The notes under the pieces were generated by a model. It did no database searches and was not told the origin of the DNA. It worked only from the letters and a program-made list of their open reading frames with translations. The position numbers and the translations under genes were made by a program. Source: Bacteroidota bacterium (lineage in GTDB: Bacteria > Bacteroidota > Bacteroidia > B-17B0 > Aurantibacillaceae). From it: 64,000 bases of DNA. Of this stretch, positions 1-16,824 are shown piece after piece (position 1 is the stretch's first letter; the number at the start of each line of letters is the position of its first letter). The stretch lies in contig JACCXH010000050.1 of assembly GCA_013697245.1 (NCBI GenBank), positions 1-64,000 on the forward strand, written 5' to 3'.

Positions 1-124
1 TATGCTCTTAAAACAACCCTTTTTAAAGTGGCCTATTTTGAATGAGAATCAATGGTACACTTTGGTGAGAATGAGTGGCCTATTTTGGATGAGTACAGGT
101 GGCCTATTATGATGAGAATCTACA
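1..124. repeat. Clustered ~23-bp repeats, probable IS21-type element end
   Basis: Four related units follow each other at about 23-bp spacing. Three contain GTGGCCTATT (near 28, 75 and 98) followed by a TGAG motif, and one contains GGTACACTTTGGTGAGAAT (near 54). The block finishes near 124 with ...GAGAATCTACA. Multiple short repeats near a terminus ending in CA are characteristic of IS21-family elements, where they bind the transposase. No transposase gene lies in the window, so it would have to lie upstream of position 1. The family assignment is from memory of similar Bacteroidota elements and is tentative. Confidence 0.4.
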
Positions 125-5600: not shown

Positions 5601-7077
5601 AAACAAAAGTTTGATTTGTGGTTGCCGAAACAGTCACAGAAGGAATTGTAATATTTACACTTACTGTAGCTGTATTTACAATTGTACTAAGAGTATTTGT
5701 ACCTGTTTGAGTAAGAGTATATATAATAGGGGAACTTAAAGTTACAATCGGATTAAGAATATTTGGGTTACTTAAACCAGTTGAAGGGCTCCATGAATAA
5801 GAATATGATGTTGTTGAATTATCAAATTCACAAACTGAAGGATTAAATTGAAAGGGAATGCCGCAAGTTGCAGTAACAGGTGAACTAAGTGTTACGCTGG
5901 GTGTAATTAAGGAAACGTCATCAATGAAATAATAAGCATTGCTATTACCGTAAGGAACAGCCGTGGACGTATTTGCAATCCATGTTGTACTAGCGTCGTC
6001 CCTAAAATTTCCGATCGTGAGTTTATCGTAATTACCTGTTGCCGTAAAAGTAACAAGGAATTTTTGCCAAACTGTATTTGTTATAACACTACTTGAAATA
6101 TCTAGTTGCTGACCTGTTAGTGTAGTTGTATTTATATTATTTATACCGGGTTGACATGGTGTAGTATTACTTAAAAACACACTTACATCTTTTGCAAAAT
6201 ACTCTTTAAAAGCCGCTTTAGTATATAATGATAACTGATAAGTCTTACTTGGAATAAGTGGAGCATTTAATGGCTGTGTAATGTATTCTCTATAACTACC
6301 ATTATTTCCCGGATTAAGGCTAAATGAATTCCAAGCAAAAATAAACAAACCTATGTGACCGCTTCCAGTATTTGAAGGTGTCAAAAAATTATAACCATAA
6401 AAATAATTTGTAGCTGTTCCGCAAGCGTTAATATAATCGGGTGTGCCAGTTAAAGAAAAATTTCCGGGAAAACTACAATTTGATGGTATTTGCCATTCAC
6501 ATACGGGTGGAACAAATCCCGCGGCTGTAAGACCTAAATTAGCACATGGAGCATAGAAATTTTCAAAGGAAGGGTTTTTTACAATATTGCAACCTAATGG
6601 GGTTGCCAAACATCTTGCCAAATCATTAGCACCTTCAGTAATATAAATATTAAATTTAGTTGGTGTTGCGGTACATGTGCCACAGGAATTGTTGAAGTTA
6701 AATTTTAAATAAATCCGGTTGCTTATGTCAAATCCATTAAAATTAAATACCGTTGTATTATTTGTTCTTAAACTGTCACGGTAGCTTCTTAACACCGTAC
6801 CTGACCCATTCGTAATAAATACTTCGGCGGAAACAAAAGAGTTTGTGAAGCTCTGAACAGTTAATAATGAACTTAGTAAAATATTCGGCTGAGTTGGTGT
6901 GATCTTATACCACTTTGTTGTGCTATCTGGGCTTTGATTGATTAAACTGCTTGTGCCAGCTGTTACTACAATAGGGTTAACAGATGTTGTACCCGGCGTT
7001 TGTGCTTTCATTACTGTAAAGCTTAGCAAGGCATACAGGAGGATTGAAATTTTTTTACTTGTTTTTGATTTTTGCAT
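2635..7077 (-). CDS. Large secreted beta-helix protein with T9SS sorting domain
   Basis: A 1480-aa cell-surface or secreted protein. The signal peptide spans residues 1-26 (ends MKAQ). It is followed by a PPC-like beta domain (about 30-150, WYKITPTQPN), then an NPSFEN beta module (about 165-395) of the kind also present in the two downstream paralogues. Next come PKD/Ig-like segments (about 395-555, with SYSWSPSTGLSNP) and a long stretch with asparagine/valine ladders and repeated NN(F/V) turns typical of a right-handed parallel beta-helix (about 560-1200). A helical region (about 1240-1390) precedes the T9SS C-terminal domain (about 1400-1480, DLFPNPASNEF to KKLVIAK). Beta-helix cargo of this type is often adhesive or polysaccharide-active, but no catalytic motif was recognised. 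It is the first gene of the three-gene cargo group. Confidence 0.85.
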   Translation of the reverse strand: MQKSKTSKKISILLYALLSFTVMKAQTPGTTSVNPIVVTAGTSSLINQSPDSTTKWYKITPTQPNILLSSLLTVQSFTNSFVSAEVFITNGSGTVLRSYRDSLRTNNTTVFNFNGFDISNRIYLKFNFNNSCGTCTATPTKFNIYITEGANDLARCLATPLGCNIVKNPSFENFYAPCANLGLTAAGFVPPVCEWQIPSNCSFPGNFSLTGTPDYINACGTATNYFYGYNFLTPSNTGSGHIGLFIFAWNSFSLNPGNNGSYREYITQPLNAPLIPSKTYQLSLYTKAAFKEYFAKDVSVFLSNTTPCQPGINNINTTTLTGQQLDISSSVITNTVWQKFLVTFTATGNYDKLTIGNFRDDASTTWIANTSTAVPYGNSNAYYFIDDVSLITPSVTLSSPVTATCGIPFQFNPSVCEFDNSTTSYSYSWSPSTGLSNPNILNPIVTLSSPIIYTLTQTGTNTLSTIVNTATVSVNITIPSVTVSATTNQTFVCSNTGQSSTLIATSNGSPTYSWQPGSLTGSSPVVSPTVTTTYTLFATQGGCTNSQTVNILVSNSCCTSTIPAFVGTAFPTNTLGNISYTSPLVFNNNVTIPASMTVALNNSQFLFAPGVSLIVSGGARLDISTSHLYACGTTMWQGIVINDGGMARSTKQNLIEDAIVAFDITANTTSTVTPYILQVVNTVFNKNYIGIKVDGYQRTFSPYPISVISSVFSSRNFTFSPTTWPYANTTDLRSATNPTTGLAAPYLLQSAALVNLKAPYSAQPAFAGISLNNVGITNSNFYGITIGDPTNASEFNLFDDLMYGIDATNSNVNSLNNVYQNTQRLLICTPRCRYNGGSAIRHSVYSLLNAKLNLTATGSFSTSPSVGNRFWDCHRGVEGLYTYQFNCEYATFRSSQSTVNGNVMLPGNTGITIQTNRFNYYIRNNEFSNINNAIGQSIFTGNYDVGAGTQNGIYANNNLINNNFFGPVTNSLSSVTTQYLNNAIYVGGTNSVAWQTVAGTKLYVENNNFNRVYRGAYLSGMNGYPISVANNKVKVADDNFTSATQHGIDLTNTLGNAIVTTNTLSGTGVTNTLTTLVFSGSNAGTNSPSVTCNDLSNSYQGFEFNSVNSGTTKWMGNKMQTHTRGFVLSNNGIIGTQGSAGNPIDNLWNGAWGIGTFCTWTADPSTFASNSLLWVKNIGILPNGPINNNGSPTSQSYNSGFINNTTGTFYCTGGPPPPQNMMASSGSSSQVLLLSNDPSLSDEKKYIADNNRYRYLAANPAIKNNNATYNSFYNGKANSSLDKFLQVENYIYNGQYSQAQLINNAVAVTNAVEANYKTFYSLYSKHATGNFTVPDSLTLINLAKLCSGIDGAVVYQARALYNLIYKTVKNYKENCDEVIISGSRFNSIGNNENSGSTKNNWTVDLFPNPASNEFNIVSNAESENLTVIIRDVAGKILYNQRLRTSNFISKLDLNLINGIYFVTINNTNNESTTKKLVIAK

Positions 7078-7143
7078 AAAATTATTTTTGATTGTTTATT
7101 TTACTAAAAAAATTAGGCGTGAACCTCAACTATTACATTCAAC

Positions 7144-7261
7144 TACAACAGGCACTTGGAAGAGCCTTGACAGATTGAAGGAAACAGAAAGATGAACACG
7201 CCGTTCTGGCGTGTTGCTTCTAACTGTCCTTCTGCTGTCAAATTTTCCAAGTTTTGTTGTA
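7144..7261. repeat. Long imperfect inverted repeat (~118 nt)
   Basis: Nested complementary arms span the region: TACAACA/TGTTGTA (7144-7150 with 7255-7261), CTTGGAA/TTCCAAG (7155-7161 with 7245-7251), TTGACAG/CTGTCAA (7167-7173 with 7235-7241), AAGGA/TCCTT, GAA/TTC, and AACACGCC/GGCGTGTT (7195-7202 with 7208-7215) around a 5-nt loop. Several internal bulges break the stem. It lies upstream of the large T9SS gene and at the left side of the accessory element. It could be a REP- or MITE-like palindrome, a structured RNA or an element boundary. No T-tract supports a simple terminator. Confidence 0.7.
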
Positions 7262-7425
7262 CAGAAGAACATTAAGCAACGCTTAATATTATTATAAAAG
7301 TTCAAGCCTCGCTCAAAACTTTGTTTTTTATTTAATTATATCTGTTTTTTAAAACTAAATTTCGTTTATTAAATATAGTTCCTTTAATTAAAGCATAAGA
7401 TTAAGAAATCTTTATTAAACTTCAT

Positions 7426-7468
7426 ATAGGTAATATTACCTATTTTAAAGTAGGGTAATATTACCTAT
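7426..7468. promoter_or_regulatory. Pair of GGTAATATTACC palindromes
   Basis: A perfect 18-bp palindrome centred on AATATT (7426-7443) is followed by a near-identical copy sharing the core GGTAATATTACC (7454-7465). Their centres are 25 bp apart. Such paired symmetric sites usually bind a dimeric regulator or recombination-directionality protein. The bound protein is unknown. The two HTH proteins of the element are the obvious candidates. Confidence 0.5.
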
Positions 7469-7526
7469 CTAAACTGTTAAACACAAACAATATAATTCTG
7501 TTTCAATCATTACTATCAGCTAAAAG

Positions 7527-7577
7527 TTAATCGATTAATCGGGTGATTAATCGATTAATTTCACTTTAATCGATTAA
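7527..7577. repeat. Left array of three TTAATCGATTAA palindromes
   Basis: Three exact copies of the 12-bp palindrome TTAATCGATTAA lie at 7527-7538, 7547-7558 and 7566-7577, with centres 20 and 19 bp apart (about two helical turns). The same palindrome recurs three times upstream of the ATPase gene at 9397-9460, so the gene is bracketed by matching sites. Candidate roles are operator, partition-like or iteron sites. Confidence 0.75.
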
Positions 7578-7622
7578 TTACTTGCTAATAGGGGCTTACA
7601 GAGGTTATACTCGTTTTACTCC

Positions 7623-7650
7623 AAAAAAAAAGGGCGGTAACAAACGCCCT
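7623..7650 (-). terminator. Intrinsic terminator of the RecA-like ATPase gene
   Basis: AGGGCG (7631-7636) pairs with CGCCCT (7645-7650) across an 8-nt loop. On the minus strand the stem is followed by at least eight T residues (A-run at 7623-7630). It sits 24 bp past the stop of the 564-aa gene. Confidence 0.85.
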
Positions 7651-7673
7651 CAGTCTTTTATGGAAATTCTGTT

Positions 7674-9368
7674 TTAATCAATATTATCAGGGTCGAAATA
7701 GTTGTCTTCGTTGCCTTTATTGCCCTTTTTATTCACGGTAAAGTCGGCAGTTTTAAAAGAAACACCTTTAGCTTTAAAACGGTTCTTAGTAGTTTCGGCG
7801 ATATAATCTTTAACATTTACTACAATATCTACAAGGTGCTTTTTTTCATTTGCACCTAAAAGATCACCCTTTTTATTGTTCTGGTCGATACAAATAAAGG
7901 CGGTGTTTTTATACCTTTCAAAAATCGCTTTTAATTTTTTAGCGTCAATTTCCATATCGTGAAGGCTGTCTAAGATGATAAAATTAAATTCGTTTACGCC
8001 GACCTCATTTATCAATTCATCCCCAGTTCTAACATCCAACACATAAAAATCTTCTACTTCGGCCTTACAGTAAATTAACTTATCCTTAAAGGTTTTATTT
8101 AAACCCTCTTCACCGCTGACATAAAGTACCACGCCAAAATTTTCAGCAAGGTAACGGGCAAACCACATACTAAAGGTAGATTTACCTTCGCCCGAATTAC
8201 CATGTATTAAAGCGTGAAAATTAACAGCCGGACAGCCGAAAAATTCTTTCCATAAGCCATCAAAACTAAAAGCCTTATAATCAATTTTAGCTAAGTCGGT
8301 GGCTGGGATAATTTTATCGCTTTTAAATGTAGCGGGCTTTTTTGGCTTTAATCCTTTTTTTGAATTACCGTTTAGGTTATTCTCAGGCTCTATATTTTCA
8401 ACCGCCTTGTTTAATGCTTTTTCGTAGGCAGGATTAATTACCTTTTCTACAATGATTGTATATTGAGTTGTTTTTGATAATACCTCTTTGGTTTTATTAA
8501 TTGCAGCTATGCAATTTTGATGGTGTTGTTTGACAGCGATTATTTTATTTTTTATCGCTGCTATTTGTACCTGCTTATCTTTTTCCCTGCTATCCTCTGT
8601 TAAGACTTGTGTACCCTTTCCTATGGCAGCGCCAATGATTGCAAATTTAAAAACATCCCACCACACAGAAGTTTGTGGTTTCTTTCTTTTCTTTTTTTGA
8701 TAGTCTTTAGCGTCATTTTTAGTTTTATTCTCATCGCTCTTAACCAAACCAATTACTGAACCAAGACCTGCACCAATTCCAATTAATTCATTCCCGCTAC
8801 GTCCCTCCTGGATTTTTAATTGAGCTTCTAATGTTTTAAGCTCTTGCTCTAATTTTTGTTTGCGTTGTTGCTGTGATTGTAAATCTGATAAGAAAAATTT
8901 ATAAAATTGATTTTCTGATTTCACTTCTTTATTGATATACTTTTCGGGCAAAGTGTTCTTAATTGGAATTTCTTTTGGTTCTATTGTCCCGATGTCTTGT
9001 CCTTGCTTATTCTCATTTTGATTATCAATGGAATGTTCGATCTTGTTATCAACGTTAAAAACTGTTTCGCTAATCAATTCCTTAAAAAAATCAGAATCAA
9101 TAGTCGAATTTGAGTTTTTTAAATTAAATGTTGGCTTATCGCTTGCCTGTTCATTTTTTTGTTTGGCATCATTATCAATCACTCCCCTTAAAGATTTTTC
9201 CAGCGGGTTTTCTTTTTCGGGTTGCTGTTTATTTTTATCTATAATTCCTTTTAACTGGCCTACACGTTCTTTGTAGCTGTATTTATTTTTACAGGCTAAA
9301 GAACAAAATCGTGCGCCACCTCTCTTATCAGAAAGTAAAGCGCCACACATTAAACAGTACTTTTTCAT
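7674..9368 (-). CDS. Zinc-finger / RecA-like ATPase of the integrative element
   Basis: A 564-aa protein with an unusual architecture. Residues 5-26 form a C4 zinc ribbon (C5, C8, C22, C26, with FCSLAC). A glutamine/lysine-rich segment likely to be coiled coil follows at about 160-190. Two short glycine-rich hydrophobic stretches (about 194-208 and 237-251) could insert in or contact a membrane. A RecA/RadA/KaiC-type core starts near 380: Walker A GNSGEGKST (390-398), a YVSGEEG motif like the RadA catalytic region (416-422), and Walker B FIILDS (463-468). RadA also combines a zinc finger with this ATPase fold, but the spacing and middle region here differ and no Lon-like domain follows. The protein may act in DNA transactions of the element such as replication, partition or recombination. 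Matching TTAATCGATTAA palindromes on both sides suggest site-specific DNA binding or autoregulation, which is inference. Confidence 0.75.
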   Translation of the reverse strand: MKKYCLMCGALLSDKRGGARFCSLACKNKYSYKERVGQLKGIIDKNKQQPEKENPLEKSLRGVIDNDAKQKNEQASDKPTFNLKNSNSTIDSDFFKELISETVFNVDNKIEHSIDNQNENKQGQDIGTIEPKEIPIKNTLPEKYINKEVKSENQFYKFFLSDLQSQQQRKQKLEQELKTLEAQLKIQEGRSGNELIGIGAGLGSVIGLVKSDENKTKNDAKDYQKKKRKKPQTSVWWDVFKFAIIGAAIGKGTQVLTEDSREKDKQVQIAAIKNKIIAVKQHHQNCIAAINKTKEVLSKTTQYTIIVEKVINPAYEKALNKAVENIEPENNLNGNSKKGLKPKKPATFKSDKIIPATDLAKIDYKAFSFDGLWKEFFGCPAVNFHALIHGNSGEGKSTFSMWFARYLAENFGVVLYVSGEEGLNKTFKDKLIYCKAEVEDFYVLDVRTGDELINEVGVNEFNFIILDSLHDMEIDAKKLKAIFERYKNTAFICIDQNNKKGDLLGANEKKHLVDIVVNVKDYIAETTKNRFKAKGVSFKTADFTVNKKGNKGNEDNYFDPDNID

Positions 9369-9394
9369 GGTCGTTATTTTTAATCGTTTACTAC

Positions 9395-9460
9395 AATTAA
9401 TCGATTAATTATCCGATTAATCGGTTATTCAGGGGTTTAATCGATTAATTAATCGATTAA
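9395..9460. repeat. Right array of TTAATCGATTAA palindromes upstream of the ATPase
   Basis: Exact TTAATCGATTAA copies lie at 9397-9408, 9437-9448 and 9449-9460, the last two abutting to form a 24-bp palindrome. A phase-shifted palindrome CCGATTAATCGG lies at 9413-9424. The array occupies the 5' leader of the ATPase gene, which starts at 9368, so a bound protein would control its transcription. It matches the three-copy array beyond the gene's 3' end. Confidence 0.78.
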
Positions 9461-9473
9461 TTTTTACTTGTTT

Positions 9474-9500
9474 AAAAAGGGGCAGTATTTCCGCCCCTTA
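9474..9500 (-). terminator. Intrinsic terminator of the 80-aa acidic protein gene
   Basis: AAGGGGC and GCCCCTT form a stem around a 9-nt loop, and the minus strand continues into TTTTTAAAC. It lies 21 bp past the stop codon of the 80-aa gene and separates it from the ATPase gene. Confidence 0.8.
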
Positions 9501-9520
9501 GTTTTTAACCCGCTTTTGGA

Positions 9521-9763
9521 TTACTTGTCCTCGTCTTCTTCCTCTTCATCATCATCTTCTTCTTCGATGTTCTCGATAAGTTCCTCAAGATGTTCTTCTA
9601 ACTCATCAATGATCTTAGCGTCTTCTTTGTCATAGAAAACTTCGATTTCGATTTCATCGTCTTCGTTCTTTCCTAAAACTCGGTTGTTTAAACCTGTTTC
9701 TGCTAACTTTTCTGTGAAGTCACCGAATACTTCGGTTGGCACTTCAAATTCAATTTTTCTCAT
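9521..9763 (-). CDS. Small acidic protein of unknown function
   Basis: An 80-aa cytoplasmic protein. The first ~50 residues could form a small alpha/beta fold (IEFEVPTEVFGDFTEKLAE, then IEIEVFYDKEDAKIIDEL). The remainder is a helical, extremely acidic tail (EEHLEELIENIEEEDDDEE and on). I do not recognise the family. Acidic tails of this kind occur in DNA mimics, chaperone-like partners and basic-protein binders. The gene lies inside the integrative element with its own terminator and a stem-loop upstream. The ATG at 9763 is the only sensible start. No signal peptide or membrane segment is seen. Confidence 0.65.
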   Translation of the reverse strand: MRKIEFEVPTEVFGDFTEKLAETGLNNRVLGKNEDDEIEIEVFYDKEDAKIIDELEEHLEELIENIEEEDDDEEEEDEDK

Positions 9764-9819
9764 ATTCTTTGGTTTTAAATTTTAATGTAATTTGTTTTTT
9801 TCTTTGCTTTTTAACTTTC

Positions 9820-9865
9820 GTAAGGAGGGCAAACTTTTTTTAATGCCTGTTTGCCCTGCTCTTAC
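9820..9865. promoter_or_regulatory. Strong stem-loop upstream of the 80-aa gene
   Basis: AGGGCAAAC (9826-9834) pairs with GTTTGCCCT (9849-9857), extended by GTAAG/CTTAC outside a small bulge. On the minus strand no T-run follows directly, so it resembles a structured leader or processing site more than a clean terminator. It lies between the HTH gene ending at 9899 and the 80-aa gene starting at 9763. Confidence 0.6.
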
Positions 9866-9898
9866 TGACTATTTTACCTAATACCCGTTTAACGTTTT

Positions 9899-10213
9899 TT
9901 AGGTGATGATAACCCGTTTGCGTTTTAAGCTTTTCATAAAATTTAAGACTTCGGCTTTTTTAAAAAGCAGCTTGCGCCCGATCCTATAAAAAGGCATACC
10001 CAATTTTTTATAATTGTGTATGCTTACCTTTGAGCATCTTAGGAATTTTGACAGTTCCAAAATATTAAATACTTCTTCTTCCGATTTAATATCGTTTTTG
10101 ATTGTGCCATCTCCTTCTTTGCTCCCGTTTATTGCTTCTGCTATCAACTTTTTGGTTAGTGTTATAAACTCTTCTATGGTGAGAGTGTATAACGGTTTAT
10201 TATCTTCACTCAT
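9899..10213 (-). CDS. Excisionase-family HTH DNA-binding protein
   Basis: A 104-aa cytoplasmic protein. The C-terminal half (about residues 47-98) matches the MerR-like/HTH_17 excisionase fold: EEVFNILELSKFLRCSKVSI, then a wing with PFYRIGRKLLFKKAEVLNFM and a basic tail. In Bacteroidota integrative elements such small proteins commonly act as recombination directionality factors or repressors. A second protein of the same fold lies directly upstream at 10285-10563. The pair may therefore control excision by the tyrosine recombinase. Which sites they bind is unknown. The palindromes at 7426-7468 and 7527-9460 are candidates. The family assignment is secure at the fold level, the role is inferred. 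Confidence 0.8.
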   Translation of the reverse strand: MSEDNKPLYTLTIEEFITLTKKLIAEAINGSKEGDGTIKNDIKSEEEVFNILELSKFLRCSKVSIHNYKKLGMPFYRIGRKLLFKKAEVLNFMKSLKRKRVIIT

Positions 10214-10284
10214 TTTTCCTTCTTTTTTTAATCAATGGTTTTGAAAACTCTAAGTTTTCGTAGCCAATAACAACCCTTGATTAT

Positions 10285-10563
10285 TTATTCATGGTTCACC
10301 TCCTTTTCTTTTTTTGTTTTCATCCATGCGTTTAATTCATGCTTGGAGAAATGTAATTTTTTGCCCTTCTTATGAAAAGGTATTTTTTTGTTGCTTGTAT
10401 AATCGTATAATGTCGTCACCGGCATTTTTAAATACTGGCTTGCCTGCTGTACATTAAAAAACTCGTCTTCATCCTGCTTTTGTTTTAAACCTTGCTCAAC
10501 GGCTTCACTGATAATTATTTTTAAATCATCTGCGCTTAGGTTTTCTATTATCAATCGTTTCAT
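10285..10563 (-). CDS. Excisionase-family HTH DNA-binding protein (second copy)
   Basis: A 92-aa protein starting at the ATG at 10563. An in-frame ATG at 10602 would add 13 residues, but the shorter form begins with the conserved-looking MKRLIIENLSADDLKIIISE. The HTH_17 domain occupies about residues 33-86: FFNVQQASQYLKMPVTTLYD, IPFHKKGKKLHFSKHELNAW, then a lysine-rich tail. The N-terminal helix resembles that of the neighbouring 104-aa HTH protein (both have a short ..EEFI/ADDL.. helix before the domain), so the two are probably old duplicates. Expected role: DNA bending or repression in excision control of the element. Confidence 0.8.
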   Translation of the reverse strand: MKRLIIENLSADDLKIIISEAVEQGLKQKQDEDEFFNVQQASQYLKMPVTTLYDYTSNKKIPFHKKGKKLHFSKHELNAWMKTKKEKEVNHE

Positions 10564-10699
10564 GGTAAATAATTTTTTAAATAAATAAGAGTTCTTTCTC
10601 ACTTATAAGTAAAGGTAATAGGCAAAGAAGGGGGCGGGGTAGCCCCGATTTACACCCCGATTTTAGGAATGTTTTGTTTTGATGAGCATAGAAACGAAA

Positions 10700-10731
10700 A
10701 ACCCCAAACAGATTGAGGTCTGTTTGGGGTT
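10700..10731 (-). terminator. Strong intrinsic terminator of the 270-aa gene
   Basis: A perfect 13-bp stem (10700-10712 with 10719-10731, AACCCCAAACAGA and its complement) closes a 6-nt loop. The minus strand continues TTTCG after the stem. It sits about 20 bp beyond the stop of the gene at 10751. Confidence 0.88.
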
Positions 10732-10750
10732 AGTTAGAGTTTTGTATTGA

Positions 10751-11563
10751 TTACAAAGTTTTATTTATAGAATCAATTTCTTTTTGAACTAAGGCAATAC
10801 CATCTGCGTGTTTAATATCTGCAAATTGTCTTTTGACGAATTCAAGATCTGCCAACAATAGCTTGTCTGCCTTTATATAAGGAAGATCTTTAATAACTTT
10901 ATACAAGGGTGCATTATCAATATTACTGTATGGCCAGTTAAATAGTGCATGGCCAAACCTTGTTAATGCGGCTAATGAAACATCGTCTTTACGTGTTTGT
11001 ATGCCCATTATTTTAAGAACAAAATAATACATTAAGGCTTGCCTTTTACGGGTAAATTCAGGGTTTTTTATTTTGCCTTCTGTTTCTTCTAGTGTTTTTG
11101 GTAGTTCAGTTATAGTATCTTTCCCTGCATTAACATTACCCACTGGTAACAACAATAATTTATCTAAATATATTGATAGAACTCTATACACGCCATTGGT
11201 GTAATGTTCAAAATCCAACTCGGCGAAAATAGGCTCGTTTATTTTAAGTTTTTGAAACAGTAAGGTTTTACTATATTCATCATCATTAAAATAATTAGTT
11301 AGGTTGGTGCGTACAAATGAAACCATCTTATCTCTATACTTAGTGAGCAGCTTTTTTCGGATAAATTCTTCTCTGTCAAAATCGACGGTTTCAAAATACT
11401 CATTGGGCGGTACAACACTAAAAATTCCTGTTATATATTCCCGCAAGGTTTCAACAAAGTAAATTTGATCGTTAATATCCGATAGGGGCTTTATACTTTC
11501 ATTAAAGTCTTTAACAAAGGCATTATAAACTATTGCTACAACTTGCTTTCGGTCATCTATCAT
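10751..11563 (-). CDS. Unrecognised 270-aa protein of the integrative element
   Basis: A predicted soluble, mainly helical protein with no signal peptide or membrane segment. I do not recognise a family. Visible features are an aromatic/acidic N-terminal half (FVETLREYITGIFSVVPPNE, then TNLTNYFNDDEYSKTLLF) and a helical C-terminal half with MYYFVLKIMGIQTRKDDVS and FGHALFNWPYSNIDN. It is comparable in size to the RteC-like regulators found in Bacteroidota conjugative elements, but I could not align it convincingly to RteC. It is monocistronic: a terminator lies on each side (11644-11666 upstream, 10700-10731 downstream). A role in element maintenance or regulation is inferred from position only. 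Confidence 0.7.
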   Translation of the reverse strand: MIDDRKQVVAIVYNAFVKDFNESIKPLSDINDQIYFVETLREYITGIFSVVPPNEYFETVDFDREEFIRKKLLTKYRDKMVSFVRTNLTNYFNDDEYSKTLLFQKLKINEPIFAELDFEHYTNGVYRVLSIYLDKLLLLPVGNVNAGKDTITELPKTLEETEGKIKNPEFTRKRQALMYYFVLKIMGIQTRKDDVSLAALTRFGHALFNWPYSNIDNAPLYKVIKDLPYIKADKLLLADLEFVKRQFADIKHADGIALVQKEIDSINKTL

Positions 11564-11643
11564 AAATTAATAACGGTAAAATGAATTATAAATTACAGGC
11601 TAAAATAGATATATTTCTAGCTATTTTATCAAATTAAAATAAA

Positions 11644-11666
11644 AAACGGGGCTATTTACCCCGTTT
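11644..11666 (-). terminator. Intrinsic terminator between integrase and 270-aa gene
   Basis: AAACGGGG (11644-11651) pairs with CCCCGTTT (11659-11666) across a 7-nt loop. On the minus strand it runs into TTTATTTTAA. It lies upstream of the 270-aa gene, so it insulates that gene from integrase and repeat-region transcription. Confidence 0.82.
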
Positions 11667-11809
11667 AAACCGCTACTTTAAAAAAACAAGCGTTAGTGAC
11701 TAAACGCCCGATAAGCAAATATAGTTAAGGAAACAATTAAATCAAATTTTCGGTTGTACTAGCAAGCTAGTTTAGAAAAAGCACGAATAATCACGCAAAA
11801 GCAATTTCC
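11667..11809. other. Non-coding stretch between terminator and tandem array
   Basis: No gene is seen. It contains the palindrome CTAGCAAGCTAG (11759-11770), which carries the same TAGCA core as the adjacent tandem array and may be another site for the same protein. Confidence 0.4.
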
Positions 11810-11916
11810 TAGCAATAACATAGCAACTTTGTAGCAAGTTTGGTGTTTTATAGCATTATCATAGCAACATTATAGCACTTTAATAGCAACTTTATAGCAC
11901 TTTTGTAGCATTAACA
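11810..11916. repeat. 11-bp tandem TAGCA array behind the integrase
   Basis: Nine TAGCA-headed units lie in a row. Eight are exactly 11 bp (starting 11810, 11821, 11851, 11862, 11873, 11884, 11895 and 11906) and one is 19 bp (11832-11850). The consensus is roughly TAGCAnnTTTA. Spacing of about one helical turn puts every copy on the same DNA face. It lies immediately 3' of the recombinase gene. Likely roles are arm-type integrase or excisionase binding sites or an iteron-like array. There are no spacers, so it is not CRISPR. Confidence 0.85.
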
Positions 11917-11949
11917 AGACAGCATTAAAAACTGTCTCGTCATGCCTCC

Positions 11950-13221
11950 TTAGCTTTTTCTTTGCTTTTTCACAAGAGAAACACCCCCAAAAACTTTTGT
12001 CATTTCTTTAGCTCTTAAAGTATCTGCAATTTTAAAATAGCGTTGGGCTGATTTATAACTCCTGTTTCCCGTTATTGCCATAGCGGTTGTTAAACTTCCG
12101 CCACGCTCTAAAAAATTGGTGACAAAGGATTTTTTACTGGTATGAAAGGTGGCACATTGCCAAAGCGGTTGTGTTTCCTCAAATCGGTTAGCACCTCTAA
12201 AATGGATGATCTGAACACTACGTGTTAGTTTAGCTTTTTCCATCACTTTTTTTAAATACTGGTTGGCTTCGCCACCTCTATGTTGTGGCATACAAAACGG
12301 CAAATGCTTTTTAGCATGGCGTTTTATAATTTTCCGGCTATGTGGATTTAAAGGTATAATATTAGGTTCTTTTGTTTTAATAGTCCTGTTGACAATTAAA
12401 TCTCCCTGTATATTTTCGGGCTTCAATCCTTTTATATCTGAATACCTCATGCCTGTAAAACATCCCAAACAATACATATCCCTTACTTCTGCTAATGTCT
12501 TATCTTCCAGTTTTAAATTTAAGAGGGTCATTACTTCATCATAATACAGGTAAATGATCTCTGTATTTTCCCATGTGTTTTTGAATTCTTCTTTTTTGAA
12601 CTCTACTGTTTTATGATAGCCATTTTTATGCGCCCAATTTAAAAAGGCTTTTAGTCGCTTTAAATTTGTCCCGACATAATTATTAAAATACTTTTTTTCA
12701 TTAAAGCAGTAATCCAAATATTCATCATAAAACCGTTGGTTAATATTCTCAAAAGTTAATTTATATCTCCTGCTTTTGCTAAAATTTTCTAAGATTTTAT
12801 AATTTAGCTTAGCATTAGAAACCGTTTTTGGTGTTTTACTAACTGCAAGGCTTTTTAAATAATCCTTATATGCCTCCCATATTGTTTTTTTGTCGGTCAA
12901 ATCCAATAAACGACCATTTAAGTTATCTCTAAAGTATTCGAGTGTTGGGGTTTCATTTAATACTTTGGCTTTATCCGACAACTCTTCTACTTTTGCCTTT
13001 AGTCGGGTTAGTTCTCTGTTATATTCTCCTGCTTCTGAATAGTTCTTTTTTACCTTCATAGTTTCATCACTCCACTTTTGAGCATCAATCCTCATATTGG
13101 TATAATATTGTAACCTTTGCCCGTGAAAACTGTAAAAAAGGAAAATAGGAACATTCTTGATAATAATTTCACCTGTACTCTTATCTTTCCGTTTCTCTAA
13201 ATAAAATTTAACTTCTGCCAT
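11950..13221 (-). CDS. Tyrosine recombinase / integrase (Bacteroidota type)
   Basis: A 423-aa site-specific recombinase with the usual three parts: an N-terminal arm-binding domain (about 1-100), a SAM-like core-binding domain (about 108-205, WEAYKDYLKSLAVSKTPKTV) and a catalytic domain (about 220-410). Visible catalytic positions are R259 (TGMRYSDI), a lysine near 282-284 (TIKTKE), H360 and K363 (FHTSKKSF), N386 (ITGNRSYKS) and the nucleophile Y395 (QRYFKI). The family norm at two of these is Arg (HxxR) and His (GH), so K363 and N386 are unusual. The gene begins 345 bp from serC, and an 11-bp tandem array lies behind it, consistent with attachment-site arm sequences. It should catalyse integration and excision of the 6-kb element. 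Confidence 0.9.
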   Translation of the reverse strand: MAEVKFYLEKRKDKSTGEIIIKNVPIFLFYSFHGQRLQYYTNMRIDAQKWSDETMKVKKNYSEAGEYNRELTRLKAKVEELSDKAKVLNETPTLEYFRDNLNGRLLDLTDKKTIWEAYKDYLKSLAVSKTPKTVSNAKLNYKILENFSKSRRYKLTFENINQRFYDEYLDYCFNEKKYFNNYVGTNLKRLKAFLNWAHKNGYHKTVEFKKEEFKNTWENTEIIYLYYDEVMTLLNLKLEDKTLAEVRDMYCLGCFTGMRYSDIKGLKPENIQGDLIVNRTIKTKEPNIIPLNPHSRKIIKRHAKKHLPFCMPQHRGGEANQYLKKVMEKAKLTRSVQIIHFRGANRFEETQPLWQCATFHTSKKSFVTNFLERGGSLTTAMAITGNRSYKSAQRYFKIADTLRAKEMTKVFGGVSLVKKQRKS

Positions 13222-13493
13222 AGTATGCTTTTTATGGGGTTATATTAACATCTTTCTACATACGAATTTACATACATTTTTTGGTTAATTGGCTTAAATT
13301 CCCATTTATCCTGTTTAAGTTATAAACAGTCTGAAACGCCATATAATAGGCTATATTATTAAATAAAGTAAAGTTAATTTATTTTGTTTAAGTGTTCACA
13401 TACCTCCTCCGTAGGAGGATATTGTGTTTGCATACATGTAAGCACCAAATACAAGTCCTTCTCCTTTGGAGAAGGATTTAGGATGAGGCCAAC
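13222..13493. other. Non-coding region between integrase and serC terminator
   Basis: No gene is seen. It is AT-rich near the integrase start and contains the attachment-site candidate at 13356-13369. Two small palindromes follow: CCTCC/GGAGG (13406-13418) and the dispersed TCCTTCTCC/GGAGAAGGA repeat (13456-13488). The right end of the integrative element probably lies here. Confidence 0.5.
13456..13488 (-). repeat. Dispersed palindromic repeat, copy 1
   Basis: TCCTTCTCC, a TTT loop, then GGAGAAGGA, followed by TTTAGGATGAGG. A second copy in the opposite orientation is at 44252-44286, so this is a REP-like repeat family. Similar sequences are common between genes in Bacteroidota as I remember them. 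No transposase accompanies either copy. Confidence 0.75.
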
Positions 13494-13523
13494 AAAAAAG
13501 GTGAACAATAAGCTCACCTTTTT
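13494..13523 (-). terminator. Intrinsic terminator downstream of serC
   Basis: AAAAAGGTGA pairs with TCACCTTTTT around a 9-nt loop (13505-13513). The T-run on the minus strand follows the stem. It sits about 45 bp past the serC stop, separating serC from the integrative element. Confidence 0.85.
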
Positions 13524-13566
13524 AAAATCAGCGCCAATCATATTCATCAGCGTCATCTGCGTTCCA

Positions 13567-14640
13567 TTACGCAAATTTATTTTCAAACTCTTTCATTACA
13601 TCTACCAACACTTGTACACTTTCTAAAGGCAAAGCATTGTACATAGAGGCGCGGTAACCACCCACATCGCGGTGTCCGCGAATACCACTGATATTTGCGT
13701 CTTTCCATAATTTATCAAACTCAGGTTCTAATTCCGGTTTGGTAATTAAGAAACAGGCGTTCATGTTACTGCGGTCTTCTACAGCAGTTGTGCCTACAAA
13801 TAAAGTATTGCGATCGATCTCGTTATATAAAAGATCGGCTTTTTGTTGGTTAATTTTTTCGATCCAGGCAACTCCCCCATTCTTCTTTAACCATTTTAAA
13901 GTTAATAGCGTGACATAAATTGGAAATACCGGTGGCGTATTATACATACTACCACCTTTAATGTGTACCTGGTAATCCAGCATTGACAGCATCTTGCGGC
14001 CTGTTTTTCCTAAAGCGCCTTTTTTTACCATTACCATGGTGCTTCCGGCCGGACCCATATTTTTTTGAGCACCGGCATAAATTAAAGTAAAATCTTTAGC
14101 ATTTATTTTCCTGCTAAAAATATCGGAACTCATATCGCATACCAAAGGAATATTAGTTTTAGGAAATTGTTTTAGCTGCGTTCCAAAAATTGTATTGTTG
14201 CTGGTAATGTGTAAATAATCTGCATCAGTTGGGATCTCGTAACCTTTTGGGATATAATTAAAGTTCTTATCCTCTGAGCTTGCAATTACTTTTGTGTTAC
14301 CAAGGATCTTTGCTTCTTTAATAGCCTTGCTGGCCCATACACCGGTATTTACATAAGCTGCGTAACCTTTATCGGTTAAAAGATTATAAGGCACCATAGC
14401 AAATTGCAAACTGGCACCGCCTCCTAAATACATGACATCGTAATCATCGCCCACTTCAAATAATTCTTTTATAATGGCATGCGATTCGTCAATTACCTTT
14501 TCGTAATTTTTGCTACGGTGCGAAATTTCCAGCAACGATAAATTTAAATTATCAAAATTGATACAAGCATCTGAAGCTTGTTTTAAAACTTCTTCGGGTA
14601 AAATTCCGGGGCCTGCGCTAAAATTGTGTGGCTTTGACAT
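13567..14640 (-). CDS. serC: Phosphoserine aminotransferase
   Basis: A 357-aa PLP-dependent class V aminotransferase, the usual length for SerC. It converts 3-phosphohydroxypyruvate and glutamate to O-phosphoserine in serine synthesis, and the analogous vitamin B6 pathway step in many bacteria. Signatures seen are the N-terminal HNFSAGPGILPEEVL, the substrate loop HRSKNYEKVI, the cofactor region YLGGGASLQFAMVPYNL, the PLP lysine segment LIYAGAQKNMGPAGSTMVMV (Lys in QKN) and the C-terminal GIRGHRDVGGYRASMYNALP. It lies 54 bp after the WG-repeat gene on the same strand and has its own terminator. No serA neighbour is visible. The integrative element begins just beyond its 3' end. Confidence 0.97.
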   Translation of the reverse strand: MSKPHNFSAGPGILPEEVLKQASDACINFDNLNLSLLEISHRSKNYEKVIDESHAIIKELFEVGDDYDVMYLGGGASLQFAMVPYNLLTDKGYAAYVNTGVWASKAIKEAKILGNTKVIASSEDKNFNYIPKGYEIPTDADYLHITSNNTIFGTQLKQFPKTNIPLVCDMSSDIFSRKINAKDFTLIYAGAQKNMGPAGSTMVMVKKGALGKTGRKMLSMLDYQVHIKGGSMYNTPPVFPIYVTLLTLKWLKKNGGVAWIEKINQQKADLLYNEIDRNTLFVGTTAVEDRSNMNACFLITKPELEPEFDKLWKDANISGIRGHRDVGGYRASMYNALPLESVQVLVDVMKEFENKFA

Positions 14641-14694
14641 ATAATTTGGTTTAGTTTTTAAATGCTGTTTGAGACTTTAAAATTAATAAATGTT

Positions 14695-16824
14695 TTAATC
14701 ATGTAGTAATTTTATTGATCCATTATTTAAAGTAATTAGTAATATTTTACTGTTTATGGGCTGAATATTACTGATATCGCTAAAAACAAGCTCACCCTTA
14801 AAGTTAACCAAAAGTTCACTTTCGTTATGCACCAGATAATAATGCGGACTTATTTTTTGAATTTCTGCAATAGAAGAATAGATCTCTTTACCCTTTAAAT
14901 TAATTAAAAAGAACTTATCTTTTAATTGCACTAACGCACAGCTGTCTTTAAAATCGCTTGCTTTGCTATATTTATAAGGTATTACAAGGTTCAGTTTACG
15001 ATCAACAAAGCCATACTTATTTTTATTTTTTACTCTTATTAAACCGTTAGATGCAAAATTAATTTCATCGTACACGCCAAAATCAATACTGGTGCGGCCG
15101 TTAACATCCATTAAAGCCTGTTGGTTCTTTTTAACCAGCTTAAATACCTGACCATTTGTATAAAAATCTGCCGGTTTTTCTTTTGCAAAATCATAAGCAA
15201 CAGCACTTAAAAAACAGCCGTAGCTATTATAAAAACCGTAAAGGTTATTAAGCACCACAATATAAATACCATTGTTTGCTTTTATTACCTGATCGTATTT
15301 TGTATCCAGTATTATTTTACCACCGGCGTTTATTAAACCATAAGAGTTGCCTATTTTTACAATAGCTATCTTATCGGTACTAAAGTCTGAAAGCCAGTCA
15401 AATTCAGGCTTGTGCACATAACCCTCTTTTGAAACAAAACCACTTTTATTCTCAGAACGGTAATAAGCAAAACCATTTTTAAAATCACCCAGCTCTTCAA
15501 ATTTAGGTTCTAAAATTACTTGCCCGAAATTATTTAATGCGCCAAATTTTCCATTTAATTTAACGGTATAAAAATTATCAGAGATCTCGTTTATTTCGTC
15601 ATACACCTGCGAAATAATTTGTCCTTGGCGGTTTATAAAACTCCATTGTTTACCATATTTTACCGGTGCAATACCATTATTAAAAGAGTAGGCGTCTACA
15701 AAATACTGATCAAAGGGATTGGTATCTTCTTTGTTGATGAAGAACACCGAATCGTTCCTGCTCACAACCGATAGACCTTCTGAAAAACCGCTCACAGCAT
15801 CAAACACAGGCTGAATAATAATTTTAGCACTTGCATCAACAAAACCAAACAGATCTTCTTTTTGATAAGGATAGAGCACTAAATTATTTAACTCCAACTC
15901 TTTTAAAATAGAATTCTTTAATGGAAAATTTGGATTCTCTTCCAAAAATTTCTCCAATTCGCTATTTGAAAAAGATTTAACGGTAAGGGCGAACAATAAT
16001 TTCCAGGCTTCCAGGTTTTGTGGGGCTTTGGGATAATTGCTCACAAAAGTTTTTAATCCCGCTACATCGGAATTTTGTTTGTAAATAGAAAATAGTTTTT
16101 CGTAAGCAGAATTAAGTAAGATATTTTTTGGATTGATCTTAATAAAACTGATATACGCTCTATCCGTATTATCTTTAGTCGACTCATCAAAGATCTGCCT
16201 GTCAATTAGCAATAAGGCTTCCTGCACAAAAGCGCTTTGCGGATGCGTGATCACAAACTCTTTAGTTTGCCTGCTATCATTGTAATTCACGGTTTCATTA
16301 TACTCCAGTTCATCACGTAAATAGACGACTTCATTCAATAAATTTTTATTGGCCAAATAATTTTGTTTTAAGAAGCTGTTGCATTTATTAATCGATATTT
16401 CTTTTTTGAGTTTTTCAAATCCTTTTGCGGCAACAGAATCTACCAATTGTAAAATGTGTACGCCATCAATTTTAAATTGAAAAAATACTTTGCTTTGGTT
16501 CTTTATAAAAAAGAGATTGTAACTTAAACTAATATATTTGGAGGCAGAATCTAAATTAAAAAAAGGATTGTCGTTACGGCTATAAATTACTGCCATACCG
16601 TATGAAGAATACGGATCGTTTTTACTCTTAAAATTTGCGGCAAATAATTTTTTTGCTTTAAAATAATCATAGATCGAGAGCGCTTTAAAACCATTCTCTA
16701 ATTTAGAGGCACTTAATTTAGAAAGGCAAAAAATAAACAGAAAAATAAAAAGGGAACCCTGTATGTTGAATTTAAATTTCACGTTTGGAAGCCTCAAGTT
16801 TGTTATAATTTTAAGATCAAGCAA
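14695..16824 (-). CDS. WG-repeat protein, exported
   Basis: A 709-aa protein. An N-terminal hydrophobic segment (about residues 24-40, LFIFLFIFCLSKLSA) is a signal peptide or anchor. The N-terminal half is helical (TPR-like, about 45-310). From about residue 320 to the end there are repeated units of the form (Y/F)GFVD..G.(V/I)I.P.(Y/F)D....F..G.A.V, the WG/KWG repeat seen in Bacteroidota (DLFGFVDASAKIIIQPVFDA, GKWGALNNF-like, KYGFVDRKLNLVIPYKYSKA). WG repeats form beta structures with probable binding roles, but no function is established. An internal GTG at 16784 would give a shorter leader and could be the true start. It may share a transcript with serC, 54 bp downstream. Confidence 0.8.
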   Translation of the reverse strand: MLDLKIITNLRLPNVKFKFNIQGSLFIFLFIFCLSKLSASKLENGFKALSIYDYFKAKKLFAANFKSKNDPYSSYGMAVIYSRNDNPFFNLDSASKYISLSYNLFFIKNQSKVFFQFKIDGVHILQLVDSVAAKGFEKLKKEISINKCNSFLKQNYLANKNLLNEVVYLRDELEYNETVNYNDSRQTKEFVITHPQSAFVQEALLLIDRQIFDESTKDNTDRAYISFIKINPKNILLNSAYEKLFSIYKQNSDVAGLKTFVSNYPKAPQNLEAWKLLFALTVKSFSNSELEKFLEENPNFPLKNSILKELELNNLVLYPYQKEDLFGFVDASAKIIIQPVFDAVSGFSEGLSVVSRNDSVFFINKEDTNPFDQYFVDAYSFNNGIAPVKYGKQWSFINRQGQIISQVYDEINEISDNFYTVKLNGKFGALNNFGQVILEPKFEELGDFKNGFAYYRSENKSGFVSKEGYVHKPEFDWLSDFSTDKIAIVKIGNSYGLINAGGKIILDTKYDQVIKANNGIYIVVLNNLYGFYNSYGCFLSAVAYDFAKEKPADFYTNGQVFKLVKKNQQALMDVNGRTSIDFGVYDEINFASNGLIRVKNKNKYGFVDRKLNLVIPYKYSKASDFKDSCALVQLKDKFFLINLKGKEIYSSIAEIQKISPHYYLVHNESELLVNFKGELVFSDISNIQPINSKILLITLNNGSIKLLHD

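Follow-up and report, generated by a model that had tools for sequence, protein, structure and literature searches.

The O protein of phage lambda recognises its own iterons through an N-terminal domain, lacks a motor domain and loads DnaB through P. The alpha protein of P4, the helicase initiator of a small satellite, consists of a primase plus an SF3-type helicase and binds two separated iteron clusters, ori1 and crr. To our knowledge, RadA acts as a branch-migration helicase without sequence specificity. In the part of the source available to us, RadA was reported to be a hexameric DnaB-type helicase, whose KNRFG motif mutants were impaired or had lower activity (PMC5512693). According to the available part of another source, the lambda origin consists of iterons that are bound by O and lie within the O gene itself (PMC7466680). 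Rep proteins of SaPIs and PICIs bind iterons beside the rep gene (PMC6092414 and PMC7581432, available in part), and P4 alpha and its cognate site are mentioned in the accessible part of PMC6092414.

Here, we analysed a 64,000-nucleotide stretch of a Bacteroidota genome (the window), in which a 564-aa RadA-like ATPase and its flanking palindromes form one end of a small integrative element. The element runs from a tyrosine recombinase through a 270-aa protein, two HTH proteins and an acidic 80-aa protein to array, ATPase and array. The features are as follows.

7493..13418, no strand: integrative element, minimum extent by homology to the C17 copy (85.5% DNA identity to C17)
7527..7577, no strand: 3' array, three exact matches to TTAATCGATTAA at 7527-7538, 7547-7558 and 7566-7577; 3' arrays also in C17, C23, L114 and L117
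7623..7649, minus strand: terminator-like hairpin and T run after the ATPase gene, read from sequence
7674..9368, minus strand: 564-aa ATPase gene, open reading frame
9397..9460, no strand: 5' leader array, TTAATCGATTAA at 9397-9408, 9437-9448 and 9449-9460 plus CCGATTAATCGG at 9413-9424
9470..9499, minus strand: terminator-like hairpin separating acidic gene and leader array, read from sequence
9521..9763, minus strand: acidic 80-aa protein, companion of the ATPase, by profile; predicted beta-alpha-beta-beta-alpha (ferredoxin-like) fold
9899..10213, minus strand: HTH / DUF3853 protein, excisionase-like, by family matches
10285..10602, minus strand: HTH_17 protein, excisionase-like, by family matches
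10751..11563, minus strand: 270-aa protein with no assigned function, open reading frame
11950..13221, minus strand: tyrosine recombinase, 423 aa, with Arm-DNA-bind_5, SAM_5 and Phage_integrase matches

The HTH_17 protein probably starts at an internal ATG (MKRLIIENL), as in the homologous loci L005 and L114. The family search with the 270-aa protein gave nothing above cut-off or better than E 0.03, and comparison of the predicted fold of the acidic protein with the PDB gave no significant match (best E 0.065).

The original prediction was that TTAATCGATTAA occurs exactly six times, three on each side of the ATPase gene, and this was confirmed for the window. Exact copies start at 7527, 7547, 7566 and at 9397, 9437, 9449, and the 64-kb window held no one-mismatch copy beyond these six. 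When up to 1 mismatch was allowed in dinucleotide shuffles of the window, TTAATCGATTAA occurred 0.85 times on average and 4 times at most, and six copies were reached in 0/100 shuffles. The phase-shifted variant CCGATTAATCGG was found among the leader sites as predicted, and the left-hand spacing, given as 19-20 bp, was measured as 20 and 19 bp. Palindrome content of the window leader was also above shuffles (P 0.002). The count of six did not hold for the genome as a whole (4.44 Mb), where TTAATCGATTAA occurs 19 times: six times in each of C17, C23 and C30 (the window), and once in C33, at the end of an apparently unrelated ORF. Since 18 of the 19 copies lie inside three copies of the module, the array is part of the module, and the palindrome is not a common word of this genome. 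We found no distinctly AT-rich stretch between the two arrays of the window; positions 7301-7500, which lie beside the 3' array and outside the part common to C17, are 78-79% AT (element mean 67%).

The three copies were then compared. The C17 copy has the same gene set as the window, and the C23 copy has only 7493-9777 in common with it (array, ATPase, array and acidic gene, 82% identity). The recombinase of C23 is 19% identical to that of the window, and its 284-aa protein and HTH protein are also different ones. C17 and C23 carry an extra 106-111-aa ORF, absent from the window, that is convergent with the ATPase gene, which places the 3' array between the ends of two genes in both copies. 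The gene serC was present in 39/40 genomes of the genus. DNA matching 7493-13418 was found beside serC in 0/7 same-genus genomes (about 4-5 kb of neighbouring DNA in six, about 1 kb in one), and the serC neighbourhoods of these 7 genomes showed no clean empty site. The ends of the three copies showed no convincing direct repeats as att sites. The family search of the window element's proteins found an integrase and no primase, terminase or relaxase family, and, with no relaxase family among these proteins, the element does not look like an integrative and mobilizable element.

The ATPase had been predicted to combine a zinc ribbon, a coiled coil, glycine-rich hydrophobic segments and a RadA-like core with a YVSGEEG motif, and all of these were found. 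In the predicted model (overall pTM 0.40), a zinc ribbon at aa 1-36 with a helix at 24-36 is followed by a disordered stretch and a coiled-coil hairpin (154-189 / 236-299), which separates the ribbon from the motor. The RadA-like RecA domain (about 350-545) contains Walker A, YVSGEEG, DSL and KNRF. Residues C5, C8, C22 and C26, an N-terminal C4 zinc motif as in RadA, were invariant in 21 sequences, as were K528, N529 and R530 of KNRF, with F531 nearly so; the G that follows in RadA is replaced in the window (KNRFK). The closest solved relatives by sequence were RadA structures 5lkm and 8rxc (E 6e-9 and 7e-9). RadA also came first by fold, followed by UvsX, RecA, DnaB, T7 gp4 and Twinkle, with the match confined to the ATPase domain (TM-score 0.28 by query length). 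Features in common with RadA/Sms are the zinc motif with four Cys, the RecA core, a YVSGEE-type motif and KNRF, the last without the G. It differs in having no Lon-like C-terminal domain (it stops about 20 residues past the core), in its inserted coiled coil and C-x3-C second knuckle, and in lying on mobile elements with cognate arrays. It was rejected as RadA proper, scoring 26.4 bits against a RadA equivalog cut-off of 403. Assignment as a defence protein was likewise rejected, the sole match being mad8 (E 8e-4, 17 bits).

Site clusters around an ATPase gene could also be centromere-like, with the ATPase segregating the element or tethering it, perhaps at the membrane through the hydrophobic glycine-rich segments of the window family. 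Such a partition or copy-maintenance role seems quite improbable to us, as the motor is RadA-like and the match to a ParA-type family was weak (CbiA/ParA, E 0.044). Moreover, the two glycine-rich segments turned out not to be a family-wide feature, being missing in L040, L041 and L042.

Relatives of the ATPase were collected by profile searches. The first search of genome contigs and viral contigs returned no relatives, and the second found 27 loci in genomes and 5 weak ones in viral contigs. Of these 27 records, 26 were Bacteroidota metagenome-assembled genomes, and the 27th (L148), filed as Saccharibacteria, is outside the sample used below. With up to 3 candidates scored per genome, the ATPase core proved common, with matches in 35/395 genomes of the class at E <= 1e-40, and 13/48 match rows of the class search began at profile positions 1-3, i.e. 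in the ribbon. The core was found in 30/87 genomes of the order. The phylum search at E <= 1e-58 matched the own genome only (1/395, up to 3 candidates scored per genome), and the families of G051 and G039 yielded no further genome. Phage matches (best 20 of 35 records) and plasmid matches (9/9 records) covered the ATPase core only.

From the wider matches we took those extending into the ribbon and those with the top scores; further loci of the L124 kind, in which the search missed the ribbon, may exist among the rest. We kept 29 homologous loci in which ribbon and core were both present, the ATPases of L113, L121 and L122 being cut by contig ends. Left out were 15 loci with another ATPase N-terminus (L043-L057), those with the N-terminus missing (L120/L144, L123/L148 and L125/L134), and L139, L145 and L152. 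L126, L127, L128, L130, L132, L135, L136, L142, L143, L146, L147, L149 and L150 were treated as already-counted loci and used for structure alignments only. The 29 loci include near-duplicates; 24 have ribbon identity below 80%, and 20 of these have a leader class. By profile, the acidic gene lies upstream of the ATPase gene in 28/29 loci, the 29th being cut by the contig end; in L133, two genes lie between them.

Two settings look like DNA-processing neighbourhoods. In L133, the ribbon ATPase gene comes after genes for AAA_25 and DUF6371 proteins. The ATPase core also matched phrog_6891 'ATPase' (E 5e-25) and was 26.7% identical to a 'helicase' of Bacteroides phage p00 (E 4e-7). Both thus share the core with the window ATPase, and the p00 relative, a 225-aa CDS two genes after MuB and near MuA, differs in being too short for ribbon and coiled coil.

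A recombinase and an HTH gene lie near the ATPase gene in most of the 29 loci. Such an ATPase, tethered to the element, might help the tyrosine recombinase in excision or integration by branch migration. We regard this as improbable. The same module occurs with unrelated recombinases (C23 vs C30, 19% identity), L039 and L110 had no recombinase match in the DNA taken, and we know of no general need of tyrosine recombinases for a branch-migration helicase. What speaks for a recombination helper, besides the neighbouring genes, is the position of the short phage relative close to MuB and the description of RadA as a branch-migration helicase in the available part of PMC5512693.

We next examined the ATPase leaders. 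A palindromic or repeated motif was present in 25/29 loci, and most loci showed the order acidic gene, GC-rich hairpin with T run, repeats and ATPase start. Motif classes, assigned by eye, were TTAATCGATTAA in the window, L005, L006 and L118; TTAAGTGCTTAA in L114 and TTAAGCGCTTAA in L117; GACGTC-type leaders in 11 loci; and ACGCGT / ACACGTGT / ACACGTTTG types in 6 loci. The L119 leader has GAAACGTTTC, and that of L111 a single long palindrome, GTACAGTACGTACTGTAC. The leader array was absent from L124, L131, L133 and L140, and in the last three no array was seen at all. Perfect palindromes of at least 8 bp were above shuffles (P < 0.05) in 12/29 ATPase leaders vs 1/73 control leaders, which were those of HTH, acidic and recombinase genes (n=73). 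Repeated 6-mers were above shuffles in 21/29 ATPase leaders vs 9/73 controls, a comparison to which terminator hairpins contribute. Palindrome content was not above shuffles in L041, L042 and L116, and L042, L041 and L122 are among the loci that fail the palindrome and/or 6-mer test taken singly.

Homologues had been expected to keep TTAATCGATTAA on both sides of the gene. Among the 29 loci, the exact motif was found in one locus of another genome (L118), and arrays on both sides were restricted to the TTAA class (window, L005, L006, L114 and L117). The palindromes of the remaining homologues are different ones, located in the leader and often also within the ORF. By the literal refuting condition set for the module reading, homologues lacking flanking TTAATCGATTAA, that reading would fail.

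Second clusters of sites were found in several positions. The window, L005, L006, L114 and L117 have one downstream (+99 to +975 by site start), and L118 has a further cluster 1.3-1.5 kb upstream. In L151, about 540 bp of upstream DNA contain 8 GACGTC sites, and the ORF another 4. By eye, L124 has its array exclusively downstream. Within the ORF, loci of the GACGTC and ACGCGT classes have further sites near +220 to +440 and +550 to +875. Compared with synonymous-codon shuffles, 13 GACGTC sites were observed in the ORFs of 11 loci vs 2.2 expected (P 0.001), and 22 sites of the ACGCGT class in those of 6 loci vs 5.5 expected (P 0.001), both pooled counts including related loci. Singly, L137, L039 and L110 reached P 0.08-0.13, and the shuffle count gave zero in-ORF sites in L112, L040, L041, L121, L138 and L141. 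L111, L112 and L119 showed a second cluster neither within the ORF nor past it, and L040, L041, L121, L137, L138 and L141 have single sites there at most.

Such sites could be operators. The ribbon would then bind leader operators and a distal or intragenic auxiliary site, loop the DNA and control ATPase expression, and the ATPase itself would serve recombination help, defence or transfer. Looping autoregulation is the main rival to an initiator role, and we consider it possible at rather low probability. A terminator-like hairpin precedes the array in most leaders, which makes a separate promoter for the ATPase gene probable at that point, and the intragenic sites resemble auxiliary operators, for which lac O2 is a parallel. 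Against it, the array of L124 is exclusively 3' of the gene, the 3' arrays of C17 and C23 sit amid convergent genes, which is a poor position for an operator, and the sites of L151 exceed what operators need.

The zinc ribbon was found to co-vary with the palindrome. The residues past the last zinc Cys matched the motif class in 23/23 loci of the three main classes: [KQ]N[KR][YF]xY with TTAA4TTAA in 6/6 loci, KAxxWE with GACGTC in 11/11, and RWNxWR with ACGCGT/CACGTG in 6/6. Stray out-of-class regex matches occurred in L129, L042 and L131. In the predicted model, the class-sorting residues fall in the ribbon helix 24-36.

Pairwise identity of the ribbon (first 45 residues) predicted 'same palindrome class' with an AUC of 0.988, compared with 0.777 for the core, 0.621 for the acidic protein, 0.607 each for the HTH and mid proteins and 0.582 for the recombinase. 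In the 17 loci with all genes, the values were 0.992 for the ribbon, 0.862 for the core, 0.765 for the acidic protein, 0.545 for the HTH protein and 0.594 for the recombinase. A scan along the ATPase gave 0.81-0.84 at the ends of the core, with 0.84 in the C-terminal part of the core. The 17-locus and scan values mean that the core and the acidic protein are not free of signal. For the 20 non-redundant loci, AUC was 0.985 for the ribbon, 0.73 for the core, 0.55 for the acidic protein, 0.596 for the HTH protein, 0.617 for the recombinase and 0.567 for the mid protein. With loci treated as exchangeable, the ribbon had a label-permutation P of 0.0005 and the core one of 0.002; no other protein reached 0.05.

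Because the classes had been set by eye, a class-free Mantel test, which likewise takes loci as exchangeable, was performed. The results showed that leader 5-mer similarity correlated with ribbon identity (r 0.617, P 0.0002, 24 loci), with 0.57-0.58 for 6-mers and a longer leader. In partial tests on 23 loci, the ribbon given the core retained 0.606 (P 0.0005), and the core given the ribbon -0.011. Pairs of loci gave the same picture. The palindrome is common to the window and the C23 copy, whose ribbons are 91% identical, HTH proteins 35% and recombinases 19%. L116 and L138 differ in palindrome with 69% identity in the core, 85% in the HTH protein and 32% in the ribbon, and L137 and L116 do so with 72% in the core, 80% in the HTH protein, 68% in the recombinase and 30% in the ribbon. 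Pairs such as L137/L116 indicate that ribbon and array move together, apart from the rest.

The leader lies directly before the ribbon-coding DNA, and linkage alone could carry both. This objection is weakened, not removed, by the distant clusters and by the nearby acidic gene, which tracks the motif less well. Regions beyond leader and ribbon shared 25.1 8-mers with their own leader vs 18.3 with random ones (P 0.0002), and in these distal regions the own leader beat every different-class leader in 5/20 loci only.

By co-variation, binding specificity of the ribbon is well supported, and we are rather confident that the zinc ribbon is the specificity domain. The HTH proteins, which had been proposed as palindrome binders, are disfavoured because their identity hardly predicts the motif. 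The palindromes might still be arm sites of the recombinase or operators of the excisionase-like HTH protein that lie beside the ATPase gene by chance, and the recombinases do carry arm-type DNA-binding domains. This is very unlikely, given that recombinase and HTH reach AUC values of 0.58 and 0.61 and that C23 keeps TTAATCGATTAA despite a different recombinase and HTH protein; both were rejected as palindrome binders. The idea that a small integrative element here carries a self-contained module for DNA binding or replication was partly supported, by the recombinase and HTH neighbours, the three copies, one of them with a different recombinase set, and the palindromes that co-vary with the ribbon.

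A recognition code may also be glimpsed, KNKY going with TCGA, QNKY with GTGC and QNRF with GCGC in one or two independent cases each, and, for the other classes, KAxxWE with GACGTC and RWNxWR with ACGCGT/CACGTG.

We propose that the ATPase and its arrays form a DNA-recognition and motor module, most likely a replication initiator with its origin, a proposal we give roughly even chances. The arrays, the RadA likeness, the element context and the co-variation of ribbon and array are evident from the DNA and its translations. An initiator is favoured because repeats at its own gene, a matched binding domain and a helicase-type motor follow the logic of iteron initiators; judged by co-variation, the repeated sites in or beside the ATPase gene match its own ribbon. 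The N-terminal zinc ribbon, through helix 24-36, would physically bind the element's own palindrome, and several protomers would assemble, presumably as a ring, on the leader cluster and the second site. The RadA-like RecA domain, of the DnaB-fold helicase class, would then act on DNA at the arrays, unwinding the excised element for replication by its own helicase activity or loading a helicase there. The ATPase might also autoregulate at the leader sites. Lambda O, SaPI Rep and P4 alpha are the parallels for such an initiator with its origin. The lack of a primase and of an AT-rich gap between the arrays, and the loci without a second cluster, count against a simple origin.

As a putative initiator, the ATPase can be compared with the systems above. 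The module resembles lambdoid O/ori-lambda, as far as described in the available part of PMC7466680, in that the initiator has its own iterons mid-gene. Its putative binding domain is N-terminal, as in lambda O, but is a zinc ribbon joined to a RecA-type ATPase. According to the accessible parts of the sources, SaPI/PICI Rep-ori likewise joins a binding domain to a helicase and has two sets of iterons and an origin adjoining rep in a small integrative element; it differs in its helicase families and C-terminal binding domain. The PICI iteron sets described there flank an AT-rich stretch 3' of rep, whereas those of the window flank the ATPase gene itself, and those of homologues also lie inside the gene. 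The window element does not have the PICI rep-pri layout, as its two sets flank the gene and its proteins include no primase family. P4 alpha is similar to the proposed ATPase role in its two separated iteron clusters and helicase initiator. No description of such a module was found in the limited, open-licence library searched. We regard the module as a variant of initiator/origin pairs, the new part being that a RadA-like motor carries a swappable zinc ribbon as its specificity domain.

Somewhat more tentatively, and at slightly less than even chances, we suggest that a family of Bacteroidota elements replicates via a RadA-like motor with its own sequence-specific zinc-ribbon origin-binding domain, that ribbon and array form a swappable cassette exchanged independently of motor, excisionase and recombinase, and that the recognition code may be legible. 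If true, element-specific DNA processing would start in a new way, by a RadA-like motor into which a diversifying DNA-recognition domain is built. The ribbon/array pairs offer a natural experiment in how zinc ribbons recognise DNA. Such modules could yield small replicons or orthogonal origins for Bacteroidota, and they could explain how small integrative elements persist without relaxase or primase.

A second repeated sequence, a TGCTAT (or TGCTAC) core in direct repeats that are mostly spaced in steps of 11 bp, was detected by scanning the 29 loci that encode a homologous RadA-like ATPase, and an array of this type was present in three of them.

TGCTAT/TGCTAC arrays
11820-11905, window
6981-7056, L005 (same-genome copy on contig C17)
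7644-7730, L117

The core occurred 8, 6, and 6 times within 130 bp, respectively, and the array was unrelated to the ATPase palindromes. In two elements it lay directly beyond the recombinase gene, while in the third it lay beyond the ATPase gene. These repeats are perhaps arm sites, or else a further array of phased binding sites.

At the edge of the element, GGTAATATTACCTA was found twice (7429-7448 and 7454-7473, 25 bp apart), and this pair lay immediately beyond the element's homologous part. An identical 124 bp opened both our contig C30 and contig C23, which carries another same-genome copy, L006 (window 1-124; L006 3-126); this common start is probably a repeat at which the assembly broke.

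The setting of several other ATPase loci was also inspected. In L039 and L110, which come from two species of a single genus, the ATPase and the acidic companion gene lay near a gene that by eye resembles dnaN, and no recombinase match was found in the fetched DNA of either locus; this is perhaps a domesticated copy. In L151, a long stretch without a clear gene (5800-6400) lies 5' of the acidic and ATPase genes, and its repeated units bear GACGTC palindromes, the leader class of this locus, in pairs; it looks like a putative expanded origin. L041 contained two near-perfect 27-bp dyads of the AATTGTCGTGACAGTGTCACGACAATT type (9993-10019 and 10101-10127), both within one ORF, which resembles DUF1016. 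Finally, the DNA 3' of the L040 ATPase (5929-15000), read by eye, appears to encode an AbiE pair along with a type I restriction system; the ATPase module may carry defence genes.
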